The notes beneath the pieces were generated by a model. The model was not told the DNA's origin. It searched no databases and was given only the letters and a program-made list of their open reading frames with translations. A stretch of 21,450 nt of DNA, taken from IMG/VR virus record IMGVR_UViG_3300017917_005344, positions 1 to 21,450 of that record; one strand, given 5' to 3'. A program made the translations under genes and the position numbers. Position 1 is the first letter of the stretch. Each line of letters starts with the position of its first letter. Origin of the DNA: a virus. This document shows positions 697 to 16,983 of the stretch, in pieces.

Positions 697-1545
697 TTAA
701 TAGTTGAGAGTTATCACTTCAACCTTTCTTTTTGATTCACCCATCTGCGAACCTGCTGACCGATGCATATCAATTTCAATTTGTCTCCAGCCATACTTAT
801 CTTTATACTGCGTCAAAATATCTGAAGGATAAGAACTCAATATGAATTTACCTTTTAACTCCGTGCAGGCTTTCAATAGATTTTCAAAGTCTTCAATTGA
901 ATATCCTTTATAATGCCCACAATTGGAATTAAAATAAGGAGGGTCAATATAGTGGAACGTATGGTCTGTATCGCACTTCTTAAGCACCTTTACTGCGTCA
1001 TCATTAAATATGGTTGTTTCCTGTAATCTCTCAGCATATTGATTTACCACCATATTGATTTTCTTCTGATTAAACTTCCTAGGATTATTATTAATTGAAG
1101 TTCGTCCTCCCGAACGGCAATTAAACGACACGTTAAAAGTATTGCCAAAAATTGACAAATAAGACATGTGGGACAAAACAAAAACCGACCACGCTTTTTT
1201 TAGCTTAACCTGCTCTTCAGGTGCAAAATGCATATCTGCTACCGTAATCTTATCAAAGTGGAGTTTATTGGCAATTCTATGCTCTTCCTGTGCATATAAA
1301 GTCGCTTCAATCTCATTCAACAACTTTTTATTATTTGTTTTAAGTTGCCTGTAAAAATTGATTAAATTATTATTGTTGTCATTGATAACCGATTGACACA
1401 ATGGTTTAACAAAAAATATGGCTCCTCCTCCAAAGAACACTTCGGAATATAATTTATGCTCAGGTATTAATTCTAATATTTTTTTAGATAATTGTTGTTT
1501 GCCACCGTAATATGTTAAAGGGGGCTTTGTTTCATTTAGATTCAT
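697..1545 (-). CDS. DNA adenine-N6 methyltransferase, D12 class (Dam-like)
   Basis: The 282-aa protein transfers a methyl group from S-adenosylmethionine to adenine N6 in DNA. Family motifs are clear: PLTYYGGK at residues 9-16, the SAM-binding VFFGGGA at 36-42, and catalytic DPPY at 201-204. The ATG at 1545 is chosen over one 17 codons upstream because family proteins start shortly before the PLxYxGGK motif and the upstream extension is low-complexity Asn/Lys. It is the last gene of the leftward operon, next to the putative prophage end and followed by a terminator. This is the position where Mu carries its DNA-modification gene mom. Its likely job is to protect phage DNA from host restriction or to mark it. 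Target sequence cannot be read from the protein. No defect is seen. Confidence 0.9.
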   Translation of the reverse strand: MNLNETKPPLTYYGGKQQLSKKILELIPEHKLYSEVFFGGGAIFFVKPLCQSVINDNNNNLINFYRQLKTNNKKLLNEIEATLYAQEEHRIANKLHFDKITVADMHFAPEEQVKLKKAWSVFVLSHMSYLSIFGNTFNVSFNCRSGGRTSINNNPRKFNQKKINMVVNQYAERLQETTIFNDDAVKVLKKCDTDHTFHYIDPPYFNSNCGHYKGYSIEDFENLLKACTELKGKFILSSYPSDILTQYKDKYGWRQIEIDMHRSAGSQMGESKRKVEVITLNY

Positions 1546-1560
1546 TTTATTATTATTTTT

Positions 1561-1593
1561 TTGATTTTGAATGATTTTAAAATTGTATTTTTG
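1561..1593 (+). promoter_or_regulatory. Bacteroidota-type promoter facing rightward, ahead of structured RNA
   Basis: On the + strand there is an exact TAnnTTTG -7 box, TATTTTTG at 1586-1593. Upstream are TTTG at 1566-1569 (16-base spacing) and TTG at 1561-1563 (22-base spacing), both near the usual range for the -33 element. Predicted transcription would start at about 1598-1601, which is exactly where the long inverted repeat begins. It points against the surrounding genes and no convincing protein follows it. Confidence 0.5.
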
Positions 1594-1597
1594 CAAT

Positions 1598-1730
1598 ATT
1601 CCGCCAAGAATAAATTACACAAAAAAAGCACCAAAAGAAGACCTAAGTCCTCCAGTCGGTGCATTTGTGTATCAATTTTCTTGGCGGAAAGTTTGGCTGG
1701 AGGGCTTTTATTTTTTAAAGCCCTGTTTCT
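1598..1730 (+). ncRNA. Candidate pseudoknotted phage ncRNA between terL and dam
   Basis: The + strand can fold into a long arm. CCGCCAAGAA (1601-1610) pairs with TTCTTGGCGG (1678-1687), AATT (1613-1616) with AATT (1674-1677), ACACAAA (1617-1623) with TTTGTGT (1664-1670), and GCACC (1628-1632) with GGTGC (1658-1662). The 25-base apical loop contains AAGTCCTCCAGTC (1645-1657). This can form 13 consecutive pairs with GGCTGGAGGGCTT (1695-1707) beyond the arm, a pseudoknot that includes two G-U pairs. Those wobbles would be A-C mismatches on the minus strand, so the + strand is the sensible reading. A terminator-like hairpin, AGGGCTTT (1701-1708) with AAAGCCCT (1717-1724), shares bases with the loop-tail helix, so the two are mutually exclusive. 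The helices are seen; transcription and function are inferred. It could instead be a processing structure in the terL-dam message. Confidence 0.45.
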
Positions 1731-1732
1731 CA

Positions 1733-3304
1733 TTACATTCTTTTATTATTTACTAAACCATTCCTTCCTAAAGTCCAACTTTCTTGTTTTTGGACCATAG
1801 ATTTTTTTAATTTTGAAATTGCTCCTTCGACGGCATCAGGAGCATCATCATTTATTGAAGAACCTTTTCCAAACGCCTTAAATTGATCATCTAATCTTTT
1901 CATATGAGGATTATCTTTCTCGTTTTCATCAATAAACAACTTTCCATTTGAATTGTATGGCTCAAGAGATTCTATTCTTTGATATTTATCACCTTTTTCA
2001 TCTTCATCTGCTTTCATAGGAATTAAATGACCTCTTTTTTCACCTTCAGCATAGACCTGTTCAACAATAGTACCTTGGAAAAATTTCCCTTCCATCCAAT
2101 ACTTTATGACAGCTTTAGGCGGTTTCGTTTTTTCTATTTCATAAAACCAATCTATCATTGAAGAAATTGGAACTTTATCTACATAAGCTTTTAATATATG
2201 ATATTCTATATTTTTTGTTTGGCCAACCAATACTGTAGCTTTATAATCACTTGTCCTATTATTCTTAAAACTAGGGTCAGTATAGCAAACTAAGTTAACA
2301 TACTTATCCCAGGGAAGAGTTTTTTTGTAAAACATCTGTTTAAAAACTTTTCCAATTGTATTTGGACTATTTTGATATTCTTGATCAAAAAATATTAACC
2401 CTAATGTATCAATAACTTCTCGAATATCCTCTTGTGTGTATTTTTCTTTCCAAGTAATATTACCTTTTTTATCTAAAGCATTTACTATTGAATGATAGAT
2501 ATTTGTAATATTAGCAGATTTAGCAACAATAGAATTTTTAGATATTCTATTCCCGATAATAATAAACCTACCTCTACCCATATCCATTGTGCCATATAAT
2601 GCTGTGAAAATCCATTTAAATAAAGCATCTACTCTGCTTTCATTTAAACATAATTCATCATCATCTATATCATCAATTACAATATAATCAGGGCGTTTTC
2701 CTTTATAGTTAAGACCCCTTGGACTTTGCCCACGACCTAAAGCTCTAAAAGACACTCCTGCTTTTATTTGAAAATTTCCATCCATCCAACTTCCTTTCAA
2801 ATATTGATCTCCAAAATCATGTGTAAAAATTTCATTATACTGAAATTCTGCTTGCAGATTACCTAAAGATGCAATAGATGCATCTTCACTTTTGCCGACT
2901 AAAACCATATTTGAAAAATATGACTTTACAATTTCTTTAGTTTTTCGTACTGACTTTTTATTGTATATTGAATTTGCAACTAACCACATCGGAATAATAG
3001 TAACCATGTGGGTTGTTTTAGCATGTCCTCTAGCCCATTCAAAAAGAGCCTTTAAACGGCGATTAAATTTAATTTTAACAGCTGCCTCATTATGAAATTT
3101 CCCATTTTTAACAATAATACCCTCTTCATCTTTAACTAGATGGGGAAAATAATATTCGCAAAAAAACTGATAATCATTTATAGCTTTTTCGATTCTTTTA
3201 TTCTTTTCTACAATAGGTTCATTTTTGTCAACTCTAGCTGAATTTTCTACTCTTTCTCTATACTCATTCCAGTTTTCTATAAGTTCTTTGCTAACTTTAC
3301 TCAT
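1733..3304 (-). CDS. Phage terminase large subunit (TerL), Mu gp28-like
   Basis: The 523-aa protein is the ATP-driven packaging motor and nuclease that cuts and pumps phage DNA into the prohead through the portal. The ATPase Walker A motif is ARGHAKTT at residues 91-98, the form typical of Mu-like terminases. Walker B is DYIVIDDID at about 206-214. The RNase H-like nuclease domain shows its first acidic residue in YTDPSF (about 341-346) and the late acidic motif DDAPDAVEG at about 486-494. Length fits the family. The start codon overlaps the stop of the gpG-like gene by four bases (ATGA), implying coupled translation. The small subunit candidate is far upstream in the operon (11044-11466) and not adjacent. 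The protein appears intact. Confidence 0.92.
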   Translation of the reverse strand: MSKVSKELIENWNEYRERVENSARVDKNEPIVEKNKRIEKAINDYQFFCEYYFPHLVKDEEGIIVKNGKFHNEAAVKIKFNRRLKALFEWARGHAKTTHMVTIIPMWLVANSIYNKKSVRKTKEIVKSYFSNMVLVGKSEDASIASLGNLQAEFQYNEIFTHDFGDQYLKGSWMDGNFQIKAGVSFRALGRGQSPRGLNYKGKRPDYIVIDDIDDDELCLNESRVDALFKWIFTALYGTMDMGRGRFIIIGNRISKNSIVAKSANITNIYHSIVNALDKKGNITWKEKYTQEDIREVIDTLGLIFFDQEYQNSPNTIGKVFKQMFYKKTLPWDKYVNLVCYTDPSFKNNRTSDYKATVLVGQTKNIEYHILKAYVDKVPISSMIDWFYEIEKTKPPKAVIKYWMEGKFFQGTIVEQVYAEGEKRGHLIPMKADEDEKGDKYQRIESLEPYNSNGKLFIDENEKDNPHMKRLDDQFKAFGKGSSINDDAPDAVEGAISKLKKSMVQKQESWTLGRNGLVNNKRM

Positions 3305-4417: not shown

Positions 4418-4498
4418 AAAGTGAAGATTAAGAAATTATGGCACTATAGTGAGTGCACTTGAACAGTGTTGGCTACTCAATATTAATCTTCACTTTTT
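4418..4498 (+). ncRNA. Candidate small structured RNA overlapping the MuF gene end
   Basis: A perfect 14-bp inverted repeat, AAAGTGAAGATTAA (4418-4431) and TTAATCTTCACTTT (4483-4496), encloses 51 bases. Inside are the palindrome CACTATAGTG (4442-4451), a hairpin CACT-TGAAC-AGTG (4456-4468) and a closing helix GAGT/ACTC (4451-4454 with 4475-4478). On the + strand the 3' arm runs into a T-rich tail, so the closing helix could itself act as a terminator. The element fills the gap between the 3907-4386 gene and the MuF gene and overlaps the last codons of MuF (stop at 4490-4492). It could be a + strand RNA antisense to that 3' end, or a processing or terminator structure of the leftward message. 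Structure is seen; expression is not known. Confidence 0.4.
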
Positions 4499-5851
4499 AT
4501 TTACTAATATTCCCACTCTAAATTCTTCATAATTAACATTTTCATATTTTTGTTTCTTTCTATTCCAACCATCTAATTTAAACATTGTTCTCGGTTGATT
4601 TTTAGAATCAATCACAACAACAAAAGGAATTTCAGAAAGGAACTTTCCTGTTTCTATTTCTATTGGCTTTTCTAATTTTAAATATTTAATATAAGTTCTT
4701 TGCCATTTTATATTAAATTTTTTACCTTCCCAAATCTCATCAGGATTTTTAATTATATCTAACAAGTTAGGAAAATCAACTTCGTGCTGACTCTTTTGCA
4801 TATGCTTTTTAAATATGTCATTAAACTCATATTCAAAGCCCAATTTACATTTCGCTCTAATTATTCCATCTTTATCTGAAAATATATCCCAATACTTATC
4901 AAAATTCTCTTTGCTTCCTGTTATAGCTATAGGCAAATTGGAACCTTTCAAAATATCTTCTGCCTTTTTCAATCCGTAGTTTCTACTAGCGCTTAATTGT
5001 TTTTTACCTTCACTTGGCATCGCTCTAAAATAGGCTGTATTTTCTTCGTCAAACAAATCACTTGTGCCTGTATTTTTCTTCCAATACTTATCTTTTACTA
5101 CAACTTTTGCCCTATTCATTGAAGCTTCTGTCGTGTCGACTGTATAGCCTTCATGCTCCGCTTGTTTTTTAGAAAGTTGAACGGTTAAACATCTACAATT
5201 CCATCCATTAGGAGGATAATATTGAGTCCAAAACTTGCTATCAATTGACTCAACAATTCCATTAAGAGCTCGATGCGCTTCACGAGTTCTACTATCATTA
5301 ATTGCCACATATTTAAGGTAAGGAAACAAATCTTTATTCTCTTGATATTGAAGCCAATTAACGCCTTGGATTGTACCATTCACAACCGCATTATATTCAG
5401 CCTCTAGCCAATTGGTTCGATATTTTGCTCTGATACCGTCACAATATTTTTTAAAGTCATCAAAACTTCTCATCTCGCCAGTATTGGGATCAATGATTTG
5501 ATTTCTATATTCCAACAGCTCGGCATAGCTTTTGGCAGTAGCAAATTTATAAATATTGTTATGTTGACGATTTAACCACTCCTGTATATTTGCCTGATAT
5601 GAATCCGCTAGTTTTTGTTTTTGAATGGAAGTGACAACACTACTCCAAAGTGTATCTCCATAAAACAACGCCAAATCAGCAATTGTTTGCTCTTCCGATA
5701 TCGATTCATTATAGACAGCCTGTAGTATCAAATTCTGCATATCATCAATCTTATTTGTACTAAATGATAATTGATGATGAACACCACCACATTCGCTACA
5801 CGCTGTTAGATTGATCTGCTGAACCCGTTGGATAGTATCTATAACCTCCAA
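4490..5851 (-). CDS. MuF-type minor head protein fused to BECR-like nuclease domain
   Basis: The 453-aa protein joins two parts. The N-terminal half is a Mu gpF-like head morphogenesis protein with signature DSRTREAH at residues 186-193 and PPNGWNCRC at 213-221. It acts at the portal during head assembly and may be carried in the virion. A CSECGGVHH cluster at 18-26 could bind zinc. Residues about 305-450 are an extra alpha/beta domain with NPDEIW (369-374), an Arg/Lys-rich strand and PFVVVI (about 409-414). This pattern recalls the phage Barnase-EndoU-ColicinE5/D-RelE-like (PBECR) nuclease domains found at the C-terminus of MuF toxins. If so, it could deliver an RNA- or tRNA-cutting toxin. 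No separate immunity gene is seen beside it; a structured element overlaps its 3' end. The MuF call is strong; the nuclease call is moderate. Confidence 0.8.
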   Translation of the reverse strand: MEVIDTIQRVQQINLTACSECGGVHHQLSFSTNKIDDMQNLILQAVYNESISEEQTIADLALFYGDTLWSSVVTSIQKQKLADSYQANIQEWLNRQHNNIYKFATAKSYAELLEYRNQIIDPNTGEMRSFDDFKKYCDGIRAKYRTNWLEAEYNAVVNGTIQGVNWLQYQENKDLFPYLKYVAINDSRTREAHRALNGIVESIDSKFWTQYYPPNGWNCRCLTVQLSKKQAEHEGYTVDTTEASMNRAKVVVKDKYWKKNTGTSDLFDEENTAYFRAMPSEGKKQLSASRNYGLKKAEDILKGSNLPIAITGSKENFDKYWDIFSDKDGIIRAKCKLGFEYEFNDIFKKHMQKSQHEVDFPNLLDIIKNPDEIWEGKKFNIKWQRTYIKYLKLEKPIEIETGKFLSEIPFVVVIDSKNQPRTMFKLDGWNRKKQKYENVNYEEFRVGILVNKK

Positions 5852-9373: not shown

Positions 9374-10018
9374 TTAAATTTGCCACCAAATGGAATGCCA
9401 ATAAACAAGTCTTATTTTTTTAAAATTACGAGTCCAAATATTCGATACCGTATCATTGAGCCATCTAACTTCGACTTTCAAATCAATATCTCGATCATTG
9501 TCGAAATTTCTCATTGTTATAGTTCTGCCTTCTACTAGACTTTTTGAAATATCAAATACAGCAAGATTTGTAGTGAAAATTACTTCATCTTCAATATTCA
9601 ATATAGAATCTTCATTAGCATATCTTACATTTACGATTCCTATTCTTGTATTGTATTCGGGCAAATACTCTACAGGAATTTTGCCTTCTTTCAACGAAAC
9701 CTTTTCTTCTAAAGATTTCTCTACATTATCTAACCTACTATTAATTTTTTCGCAATCACAGTCGCTATTTTCTTCAGGTAATAGAGCAGCAGGTATTTTT
9801 CCATTTGCGTCCAACAAGACTACACCGTTCGGCTCATTGACATTATCAAAGTCCACTTTATTCTCAAGTTCATCTTTTAGCCCCTGAACATCGTCAATGC
9901 TATGACGATGTTTTTTGTCGGCTTTATTTTCAACTTTTAAATTTAATATTTCAAAATTATCATCCAACTCATCATGAGTTAGTTTTGATTTTTTGATTCG
10001 TCTAAGTGTTAATTGCAT
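9374..10018 (-). CDS. Tail fibre / collar-like protein
   Basis: The 214-aa protein carries two sequence habits of phage fibres. HRHSIDDVQGL at about residues 37-47 matches the H-x-H-x-hhDhxGL attachment repeat. GVVLLDANGKIPAALLPE at about 65-82 and a shorter copy EGKIPVEYLPE near 116-126 match the 'nGkIP..LLP' fibre motif. Between them lie a DCDCE cysteine pair and a coiled-coil stretch (about 90-112). The C-terminus is beta-rich with several Trp, likely a small globular tip. It lies between baseplate genes, suggesting a short fibre or a baseplate-bound trimeric spike. The exact role is inferred. Confidence 0.55.
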   Translation of the reverse strand: MQLTLRRIKKSKLTHDELDDNFEILNLKVENKADKKHRHSIDDVQGLKDELENKVDFDNVNEPNGVVLLDANGKIPAALLPEENSDCDCEKINSRLDNVEKSLEEKVSLKEGKIPVEYLPEYNTRIGIVNVRYANEDSILNIEDEVIFTTNLAVFDISKSLVEGRTITMRNFDNDRDIDLKVEVRWLNDTVSNIWTRNFKKIRLVYWHSIWWQI

Positions 10019-12368: not shown

Positions 12369-13664
12369 TTATTGATTAACTTTTACAGCAAATCCAATAC
12401 TTACCTCAATGTTATCTGCACTTCCATAAGGAACGATTAATACTTTTACTTCTATCAATCCTGTACTCAATACAGGCTGTGCAGGATCAATGGACACTTT
12501 GTACCCACTAATCTCATTATTGGCTACCATTGCATCCAAAGTATTCTCACAAATTCCTTCTAAATATGTGGCTACATCGGGAGCTATCTCTCCTGTAGCT
12601 GGCTCAATTCGGATAGGACTATTCAATTCAGGAAGCAAAGTCTTGCGAAGCACTCTAGTTGCTTTTTGCATCGTTCGCACATTTTGAATTTTAGCAAAAT
12701 CACTTGTACGCTCATCCAATGTAAATGCCTCATTCATATATGTGCCGTCCAAGCCTACAAATTTTCGCATAAATAGATATCCCTTGTCTTGCATGTTGAA
12801 TAAATCGCTTTCGTCAAACTGAGTCAATTTGGCTTCATTGGCGAGCATAGGCTCCATATACATGCGAATATTTGACAATTGAACATTGATGCTTGGATTC
12901 CATTTTTTTAGCAATGGAATTAAAATAGAGTCCTGATTGACATCATCACCATTTGAAGCGGTATAAGGCATAATATTTCGCTCTGCCACCCAAGCAATGG
13001 ATTCTGACACTTTAGATTTTGATAGCAAACCTAACATTCCTCCAATTGCAAATAAGTATGTTCCAGGGACAATGACACCACCTGTAGTAAGAACACTATA
13101 TAGCTCATAGTTACATCCAATGACTGCTGAGAAGTATTTTCCAGCCACATTGTTATTTTTAGCCCAAGTAATCAATGAAGGGTTGGACAACATAGGATTG
13201 TTCATCTCTGTCAATGAAGATACTAAGCATACAGCAGGCATATATTGTTCTTCTAATTCTTTGAATACACTGGATAGACTGCTTATTGTAGCCTCAAAAG
13301 ATGTATATGAATATACTCCAAATTGCCTAATAGAACCTTTAGATTCCAATTGCATTTTTTTAACCGTTGCACCTAATTTGGCATTACTTGAAGTATGCAC
13401 ATACAATGGAGCATCTGGATTCACTCTGAAAAAATCAGCTACAATGAATATTGCATTGACAAAATTCTGCACAAACCAAGTCGAAGCAGGATCATTGACC
13501 CATACCTTAAATTCATTTGAATTTTTAAAATACATTCCTGATGGAAATGCACTGCCAAATGAGGCTTCATCCAATACAATTGCAGATATTGAATCTTCAT
13601 TGATTCCTTTTCTTCCTAGTCCTCCGTTGAGAACTTTAAATGACACATTATTTAATTTTGACAT
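12369..13664 (-). CDS. Contractile tail sheath protein (DUF2586-like)
   Basis: The 431-aa protein is the probable sheath subunit that surrounds the tail tube and contracts to inject DNA. Its features fit the DUF2586-type sheath: N-terminal VLDEASFGSAFPSGMYF-like alpha/beta part (about 30-47), a mid domain with PAVCLVSSLTEM and GTYLFAIGGMLGLLSKSKVSESIAWVAER (two adjoining stretches around 200-228), KGYLFMRKFVGLDGTYMNEAFTL (around 290-312), and a C-terminal strand ELNSPIRIEPATGEIAP then VSIGFAVKVN. It is preceded by two hairpins in its leader (13703-13752) and followed by the tube gene. The length is close to known short sheaths. Confidence 0.82.
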   Translation of the reverse strand: MSKLNNVSFKVLNGGLGRKGINEDSISAIVLDEASFGSAFPSGMYFKNSNEFKVWVNDPASTWFVQNFVNAIFIVADFFRVNPDAPLYVHTSSNAKLGATVKKMQLESKGSIRQFGVYSYTSFEATISSLSSVFKELEEQYMPAVCLVSSLTEMNNPMLSNPSLITWAKNNNVAGKYFSAVIGCNYELYSVLTTGGVIVPGTYLFAIGGMLGLLSKSKVSESIAWVAERNIMPYTASNGDDVNQDSILIPLLKKWNPSINVQLSNIRMYMEPMLANEAKLTQFDESDLFNMQDKGYLFMRKFVGLDGTYMNEAFTLDERTSDFAKIQNVRTMQKATRVLRKTLLPELNSPIRIEPATGEIAPDVATYLEGICENTLDAMVANNEISGYKVSIDPAQPVLSTGLIEVKVLIVPYGSADNIEVSIGFAVKVNQ

Positions 13665-16910: not shown

Positions 16911-16983
16911 TAGCGGAGACAGGACTCGAACCTGTGACCTTCGGATTATGAAACCGACGAGCTACCAACTGCTCTACTCCGCA
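16911..16983 (-). tRNA. tRNA-Met (CAU anticodon)
   Basis: A full cloverleaf reads on the minus strand in 73 bases. The acceptor stem is GCGGAG/CTCCGC, the D stem GAGC/GCTC with loop AGTTGGTA, the anticodon loop TTCATAA with CAT, the T arm ACAGG-TTCGAGT-CCTGT, and the discriminator A. CCA is not encoded. Position 1-72 is U-U and position 31-39 is U-U, so two stem ends are unpaired. It lacks the three G-C pairs of an initiator. It may be an elongator Met tRNA or, if modified at C34, an AUA-reading Ile tRNA. It lies between the capsid and holin genes in the late operon. Confidence 0.9.

Follow-up and report, generated by a model that had tools for sequence, protein, structure and literature searches.

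A predicted pseudoknotted RNA family encoded head-to-head with exchangeable DNA-modification genes in Mu-like phages of Bacteroidota

What is encoded opposite the late genes, in the gap between terL and a DNA methyltransferase gene of a Mu-like phage? The DNA analysed here (the window) is a 21,450-base partial record of such a phage, a virus of Bacteroidota bacteria, and encodes Mu portal and Mu F proteins. The locus of interest is flanked on one side by terL (1733-3304, minus strand) and on the other by a D12-class adenine DNA methyltransferase gene (697-1545, minus strand), which is divergent from the element described here and is the last gene before the right end of the phage. The product of the latter matches Pfam PF02086 (5e-23) and a PHROG annotated as DNA methyltransferase. 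A partial Type ISP restriction-modification gene (PF18135) occupies positions 1-627; this DNA at the right end of the phage is probably that of the host. Elsewhere in the window, the Mu F-like head protein encoded at 4490-5851 (minus strand) includes a nuclease domain of the PBECR2 type (barnase/EndoU/colicin-like), and a tRNA gene lies inside the late-gene region (16911-16983, minus strand).

We conclude that the element in this gap is a member of a widespread, undescribed family of structured RNAs, with a predicted knotted fold of ~110-115 nt. The original prediction, made from the window alone, had proposed that a TAnnTTTG box on the plus strand leads into a multi-helix arm whose loop pairs with a tail outside the arm, and each of these parts was recovered. 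The box, TATTTTTG at 1586-1593 (plus strand, as are all features below), fits this pattern as a promoter-like -7 box and would place the RNA 5' end at ~1598. Fold prediction gave an arm consisting of P1 (12 bp, 1599-1610/1678-1689; also found in parsed homologues), P2 (8 bp, 1616-1623/1664-1671) and an additional 5-bp helix (1628-1632/1658-1662), topped by small apical pairs. The loop at 1645-1657 pairs with the tail at 1695-1707 over 13 positions, two of them G-U; this loop-tail helix, PK1, crosses P2. A mini-hairpin in the apical loop, P3 (GAC-CUAA-GUC, 1640-1649), overlaps the loop strand of PK1. By inspection of the sequence, a further helix, P4, can be drawn at 1673-1680/1687-1695 with one bulged base; it is weak in the window, with either four contiguous pairs or eight with a bulge that overlap P1, and strong in other members. 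Immediately 3' of PK1 lies a T-tract, TTTTATTTTT (1706-1715), the likely 3' end of the RNA. The fold of the window element had a z-score of -7.1, with none of 200 shuffles as good. A joint descriptor of box, P1, loop-tail helix and T-tract scored 35.9 at the element; the highest score at any other place in the window was 17.4, and 2000 dinucleotide shuffles did not exceed 22.1.

The search for homologues could not rely on nucleotide similarity. Plain DNA comparison with phages returned nothing useful, relatives of terL gave no DNA-level match, and the region after terL in those relatives was likewise unproductive; the adjacency to terL is incidental. The RNA was present in six of 22 terL-related records, some of which may be incomplete. 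The family was instead reached via the methyltransferase, a relative of which (43% identical in alignment) is encoded by the Winogradskyella phage Peternella_1. Here, in sequence that looks unrelated, the same parts were found in the same place and orientation: a TATCTTTG box, a stem, a loop (CCTCGGCTT) pairing with a tail (AAGTCGAGG), and a tail hairpin. Aligning the window methyltransferase with its Peternella_1 relative led to 80 viral loci, of which 30 scored above the descriptor threshold on the RNA strand, compared with 0 of 80 on the other strand and 0 of 400 shuffles. A covariance model, R1, built from a 26-member MAFFT alignment recovered members outside its training set, and matched 17 of 397 Flavobacteriaceae and 19 of 393 Bacteroidales genomes.

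In total, 72 homologues were parsed from IMG/VR contigs, Flavobacteriaceae and Bacteroidales genomes and five isolate phages, i.e., Peternella_1, F. columnare fF4, Elizabethkingia TCUEAP3, the hankyphage-like Bacteroides jmh47_hp and P. gingivalis phage007a; some members are closely related and hence not fully independent. Box, P1, P2, PK1 and T-tract follow one another in fixed order in the window and in more than 70 homologues. The TAnnTTTG box was exact in 51 of 54 parsed members, 0-5 nt 5' of P1, and corresponds to the consensus that PMC7366714 quotes for the housekeeping sigma factor of Bacteroidota. Across members, the comparison shows a predicted RNA gene of ~95-130 nt made up of this box, P1, P2, PK1, P4 and a terminal T-tract. 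A separate scan of viral contigs with a stem-sequence pattern gave 27 loci, of which only L094 looked similar; it was set aside as a family member, having no R1 match and no T-tract. At this locus (9777-9905), a TATAAT motif accompanies a stem of at least 18 bp, the loop of which is complementary over 20 bp to the ribosome-binding region of an HNH endonuclease gene. A second site was also seen in Peternella_1 itself (L255, ~12499-12660, plus strand), with another TATATTTG box, an 18-bp stem, a T-rich stretch and an 8-bp loop-tail match (CCCAGAGG/CCTCTGGG); it lies just upstream of gp24, a 'transcriptional regulator', and has no R1 match.

Across the family the sequence is largely unconserved and the pairing is conserved. 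RNAalifold, run unprompted on a plain MAFFT alignment of 26 members, returned PK1 as the only helix; of its nine pairs, eight had both partners replaced in one or more sequences. In an alignment of 21 model-fetched matches that had been fitted to PK1, 98.9% of PK1 cells were paired and 45 cells carried double changes, compared with 13.2 after shuffling; the signal collapsed when the strands were slid. Compensatory changes in the loop-tail helix, the absence of which among homologues was to have counted against the original prediction, were thus found. P2 and P4, both of which lie outside the R1 model, were ruined by exchanging strands between members. For P2, the observed value was 13.3 versus 6.5 swapped (at most 7.1), and 17.3 versus 8.0 in the Bacteroidales set. 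P4, which joins the 3' junction of P2 and P1 to a segment 3' of P1, gave 7.22 versus 4.59 swapped (the largest of 2000 being 5.14) and 7.79 versus 4.72 in a second set. Perfect and mutually unrelated versions of P4 occur, e.g., CTTGATGG/CCATCAAG in L203 and TACCCG/CGGGTA in L217, as does a version with one G-U pair in L263 (TTGTTAGTAGAA/TTCTACTAATAA). Support for P3 was weak (4.37 versus 3.92 swapped, with a largest swap of 4.25).

These helices bear on how the RNA would end. In the family, PK1 has a GC content of 0.68, and 5.7 of the 8 nt that follow it are T, versus 3.2 further on, i.e., the GC-rich helix and U-tract of an intrinsic terminator. The original prediction had assigned termination to a hairpin at 1701-1724 (GGGCTTT..AAAGCCC), the 5' arm of which is overlapped by the tail strand of PK1, and had proposed that the two compete. 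The hairpin is indeed present; its T-run lies in the loop with none after it, which makes it a poor intrinsic terminator, and it would form only in read-through transcripts. The rivalry for the tail was borne out, in that the tail can pair downstream in many members (7.43 versus 6.49 swapped for the family), more weakly than in the loop-tail helix. The original prediction had also allowed that the loop might control termination; since the loop-tail helix is the one beside the T-tract, it would, if anything, promote termination. A second competition involves P4, whose hairpin loop would be the 3' strand of P1 (1678-1689 in the window) with a slack of 0-10 nt, so that a long P1 and P4 are incompatible in full; where P1 is short (6-8 bp), it might base-pair with this loop in the manner of a kissing complex.

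We next consider what accompanies the RNA. MuA-type transposases matching that of Peternella_1 (E<=1e-5) were found in 22 of 26 RNA-bearing records; the Peternella_1 protein served as query, the Pfam model Mu-transpos_C having failed to detect these transposases. In the five isolate phages, the RNA lies opposite the late genes, at a distance of 0.9-2.2 kb from the record's right end, and has a tail gene or a hypothetical gene to its left; the terL neighbour named in the original prediction is incidental. On the other side the picture was constant. In 39 of 39 records, a divergent ORF begins close to the 5' end of the RNA, and within ~105 nt in 34 of these, with start codons being guessed; the records comprise the window, the five isolates and 33 retained genome loci, 32 of which the RNA model had picked out from a sample blind to the neighbouring gene. 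Partner proteins, typed by tests on ten representatives and by motifs in the others, were D12 (two branches), C5 and N6/N4 methyltransferases, Mom, a thymidylate-synthase-like protein and an ABC/GNAT protein; we know of no link between the last of these and DNA modification. The partner gene swaps between members and the RNA stays. In Elizabethkingia TCUEAP3, for instance, the RNA adjoins a true Mom protein (PF25680), and in Peternella_1 the box abuts the ATG of the modification gene, leaving no space for a separate promoter. There were departures from this layout: in L158 and L161, the RNA is found beyond the methyltransferase, on its far side, and is without a clear P4 or a clean parse, and the same probably holds for L190, which was not resolved by the parser. 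L231 and L246 have truncated modification genes (102 and 108 aa) and intact RNA helices. In L158, a CRISPR-looking repeat array (4960-5810, reading VSIPVWFDWE) starts beside the RNA at the phage end. P4, the exchangeable head-to-head modification gene and the spread across Bacteroidota Mu-like phages had all been absent from the original prediction.

The strand was assessed from wobble pairs in the 72 members, using a strand-neutral rule. G-U and A-C pairs numbered 79 and 2 in PK1 and 26 and 2 in P4, i.e., 105 versus 4 together, which fits only the plus (anti-late-operon) strand; PK1 members were first chosen with G-U allowed, which favours G-U, and P4 played no part in that choice. This bias places the RNA opposite the late genes, as had been proposed, and together with the 5' box the family comparison supports a compact phage RNA there. 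The same count for the arm gave 16 G-U and 12 A-C in P1 and 25 and 19 in P2, or 41 and 31 in 1824 pairs, so that these stems are almost purely Watson-Crick and show no strand preference. This neutrality, and the more stable minus-strand fold of the window arm (-57.1 versus -49.5 kcal/mol) favour an alternative in which the other strand is functional, as the methyltransferase mRNA leader or as a DNA inverted repeat, with the plus-strand features being incidental. The better minus-strand fold also means that one sequence alone cannot give the strand, and the two G-U pairs that the original prediction had taken to fix it were insufficient by themselves. We nevertheless consider this alternative very improbable and largely refuted, given the wobble bias in PK1 and P4, the confinement of descriptor hits to the RNA strand, and the box and T-tract, which stand at the correct ends on the plus strand only. 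The neutrality of P1 and P2 suggests selection on both strands or hairpin-templated repair; it looks as though the hairpin had a role in the late mRNA, or at the DNA level, too.

Since the RNA stands head-to-head with a DNA-modification gene that varies, it probably controls that gene. To this we add a specific proposal to which we give an even chance, namely that a self-terminating antisense RNA holds the modification gene back until the late operon reads through, and the geometry of the locus in the 39 records fits an RNA that is cis-antisense to the modification-gene leader. The putative RNA promoter would occupy the space ahead of the modification gene, which would then probably be transcribed only by late read-through of the RNA locus. 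In the prophage state, the RNA would be made and would end itself at PK1 and the T-tract; its transcription would counter stray rightward transcription, and the RNA would base-pair with the late mRNA, at the complementary hairpin of its leader beside the start codon, such that the potentially toxic modifier stays off. Strong late transcription would override this repression. PK1 and P4 would bring about termination, protect the RNA from decay or attack, and either mask its loop or leave it accessible. Strand-neutral P1 and P2 are expected if the late mRNA must form a mirror hairpin too, an argument weakened in that hairpin-templated repair could also give strand-neutral perfect stems. Counting against the antisense proposal are the far-side RNAs (L158, L161 and probably L190) and the truncated genes (L231 and L246); moreover, a cis-antisense RNA requires just complementarity, which leaves the conservation of PK1 and P4 unexplained.

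A rival reading is a trans-acting phage RNA, protein-binding or a sponge, perhaps for counter-defence, that merely travels with a right-end anti-restriction cassette. Speaking for it are the promoter-like box and T-tract end that the RNA has of its own, its compact fold with several covarying, crossing helices, its retention where the neighbouring gene is swapped or truncated, and its position beyond the methyltransferase in L158 and L161. We regard this as possible though doubtful, because a nearby head-to-head modification gene in every one of the 39 records is a tighter association than a free-standing gene needs. P4 may also be read as part of a termination switch, in which P1 and P2 would allow read-through antisense into the late operon, P2, PK1 and P4 would form the terminator, and a factor binding the 5' end would choose. 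The covariation of P4, the finding that full P1 and P4 rarely fit together, and the ability of the tail to pair downstream in a read-through RNA are in its favour. However, the energies of P1 and P4 are anticorrelated (rho -0.41) rather than balanced, which weakens a balanced two-state switch, the kissing interaction described above could reconcile a short P1 with P4, and no ligand or factor is known; we consider this switch improbable. A further reading, which we think unlikely, would make the family a dedicated, universal off-switch for exchangeable, potentially toxic modification genes of transposable phages, a doubly knotted RNA with two incompatible folds (P1, or P4 with PK1) deciding whether antisense transcription ends and hence whether DNA is modified.

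None of the 4227 models of Rfam 15 reached its gathering score on the window element or on 15 homologous loci, the best sub-threshold matches of a low-threshold scan were at chance level, and in the open-licence literature we found no paper describing such an RNA. Several known systems are nevertheless similar in part. RNA-OUT of IS10, FinP and CopA are cis-encoded antisense RNAs with stable stem-loops. They resemble the RNA predicted here in being short, self-terminating and directed against a leader near the start codon, with near-perfect stems; to our knowledge, none has a conserved, covarying loop-tail pseudoknot together with P4. The pRNA of phi29 is alike in being a phage RNA of ~120 nt that is closed by a stem and has exposed segments complementary to one another. 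It differs in belonging to other phages and to a packaging motor, whereas the RNA described here follows modification genes and not terminase; a phi29-like packaging RNA was rejected on the grounds that no terminase link exists in the isolate phages. In Mu, a leader structure in the mom mRNA restrains mom, and Com opens this structure (PMC6483171), which makes it a functional precedent for the repression proposed here. As in com-mom, a DNA-modification gene lies at the right end with an RNA structure near its start, although repression is here a prediction. Mu uses the protein Com and a structure within the mom mRNA (PMC6483171), while the phages studied here have a separate, divergent and conserved structured RNA gene before unrelated modification genes. 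What is new is the RNA family itself, and its mode of action may be a variant of known antisense control.

Taken together, the data describe a structured RNA family that covaries strongly, has no relative in Rfam and keeps to one class of genetic partner. Its carriers are prophages, among them a hankyphage-like phage of human-gut Bacteroides, in ~4-5% of the Flavobacteriaceae and Bacteroidales genomes sampled. If the universal off-switch were true, one module would govern Mom, methyltransferases and thymidylate-synthase-like modifiers. The RNA offers a concrete, testable part for the control of toxic DNA-modification genes in transposable phages outside enterics.
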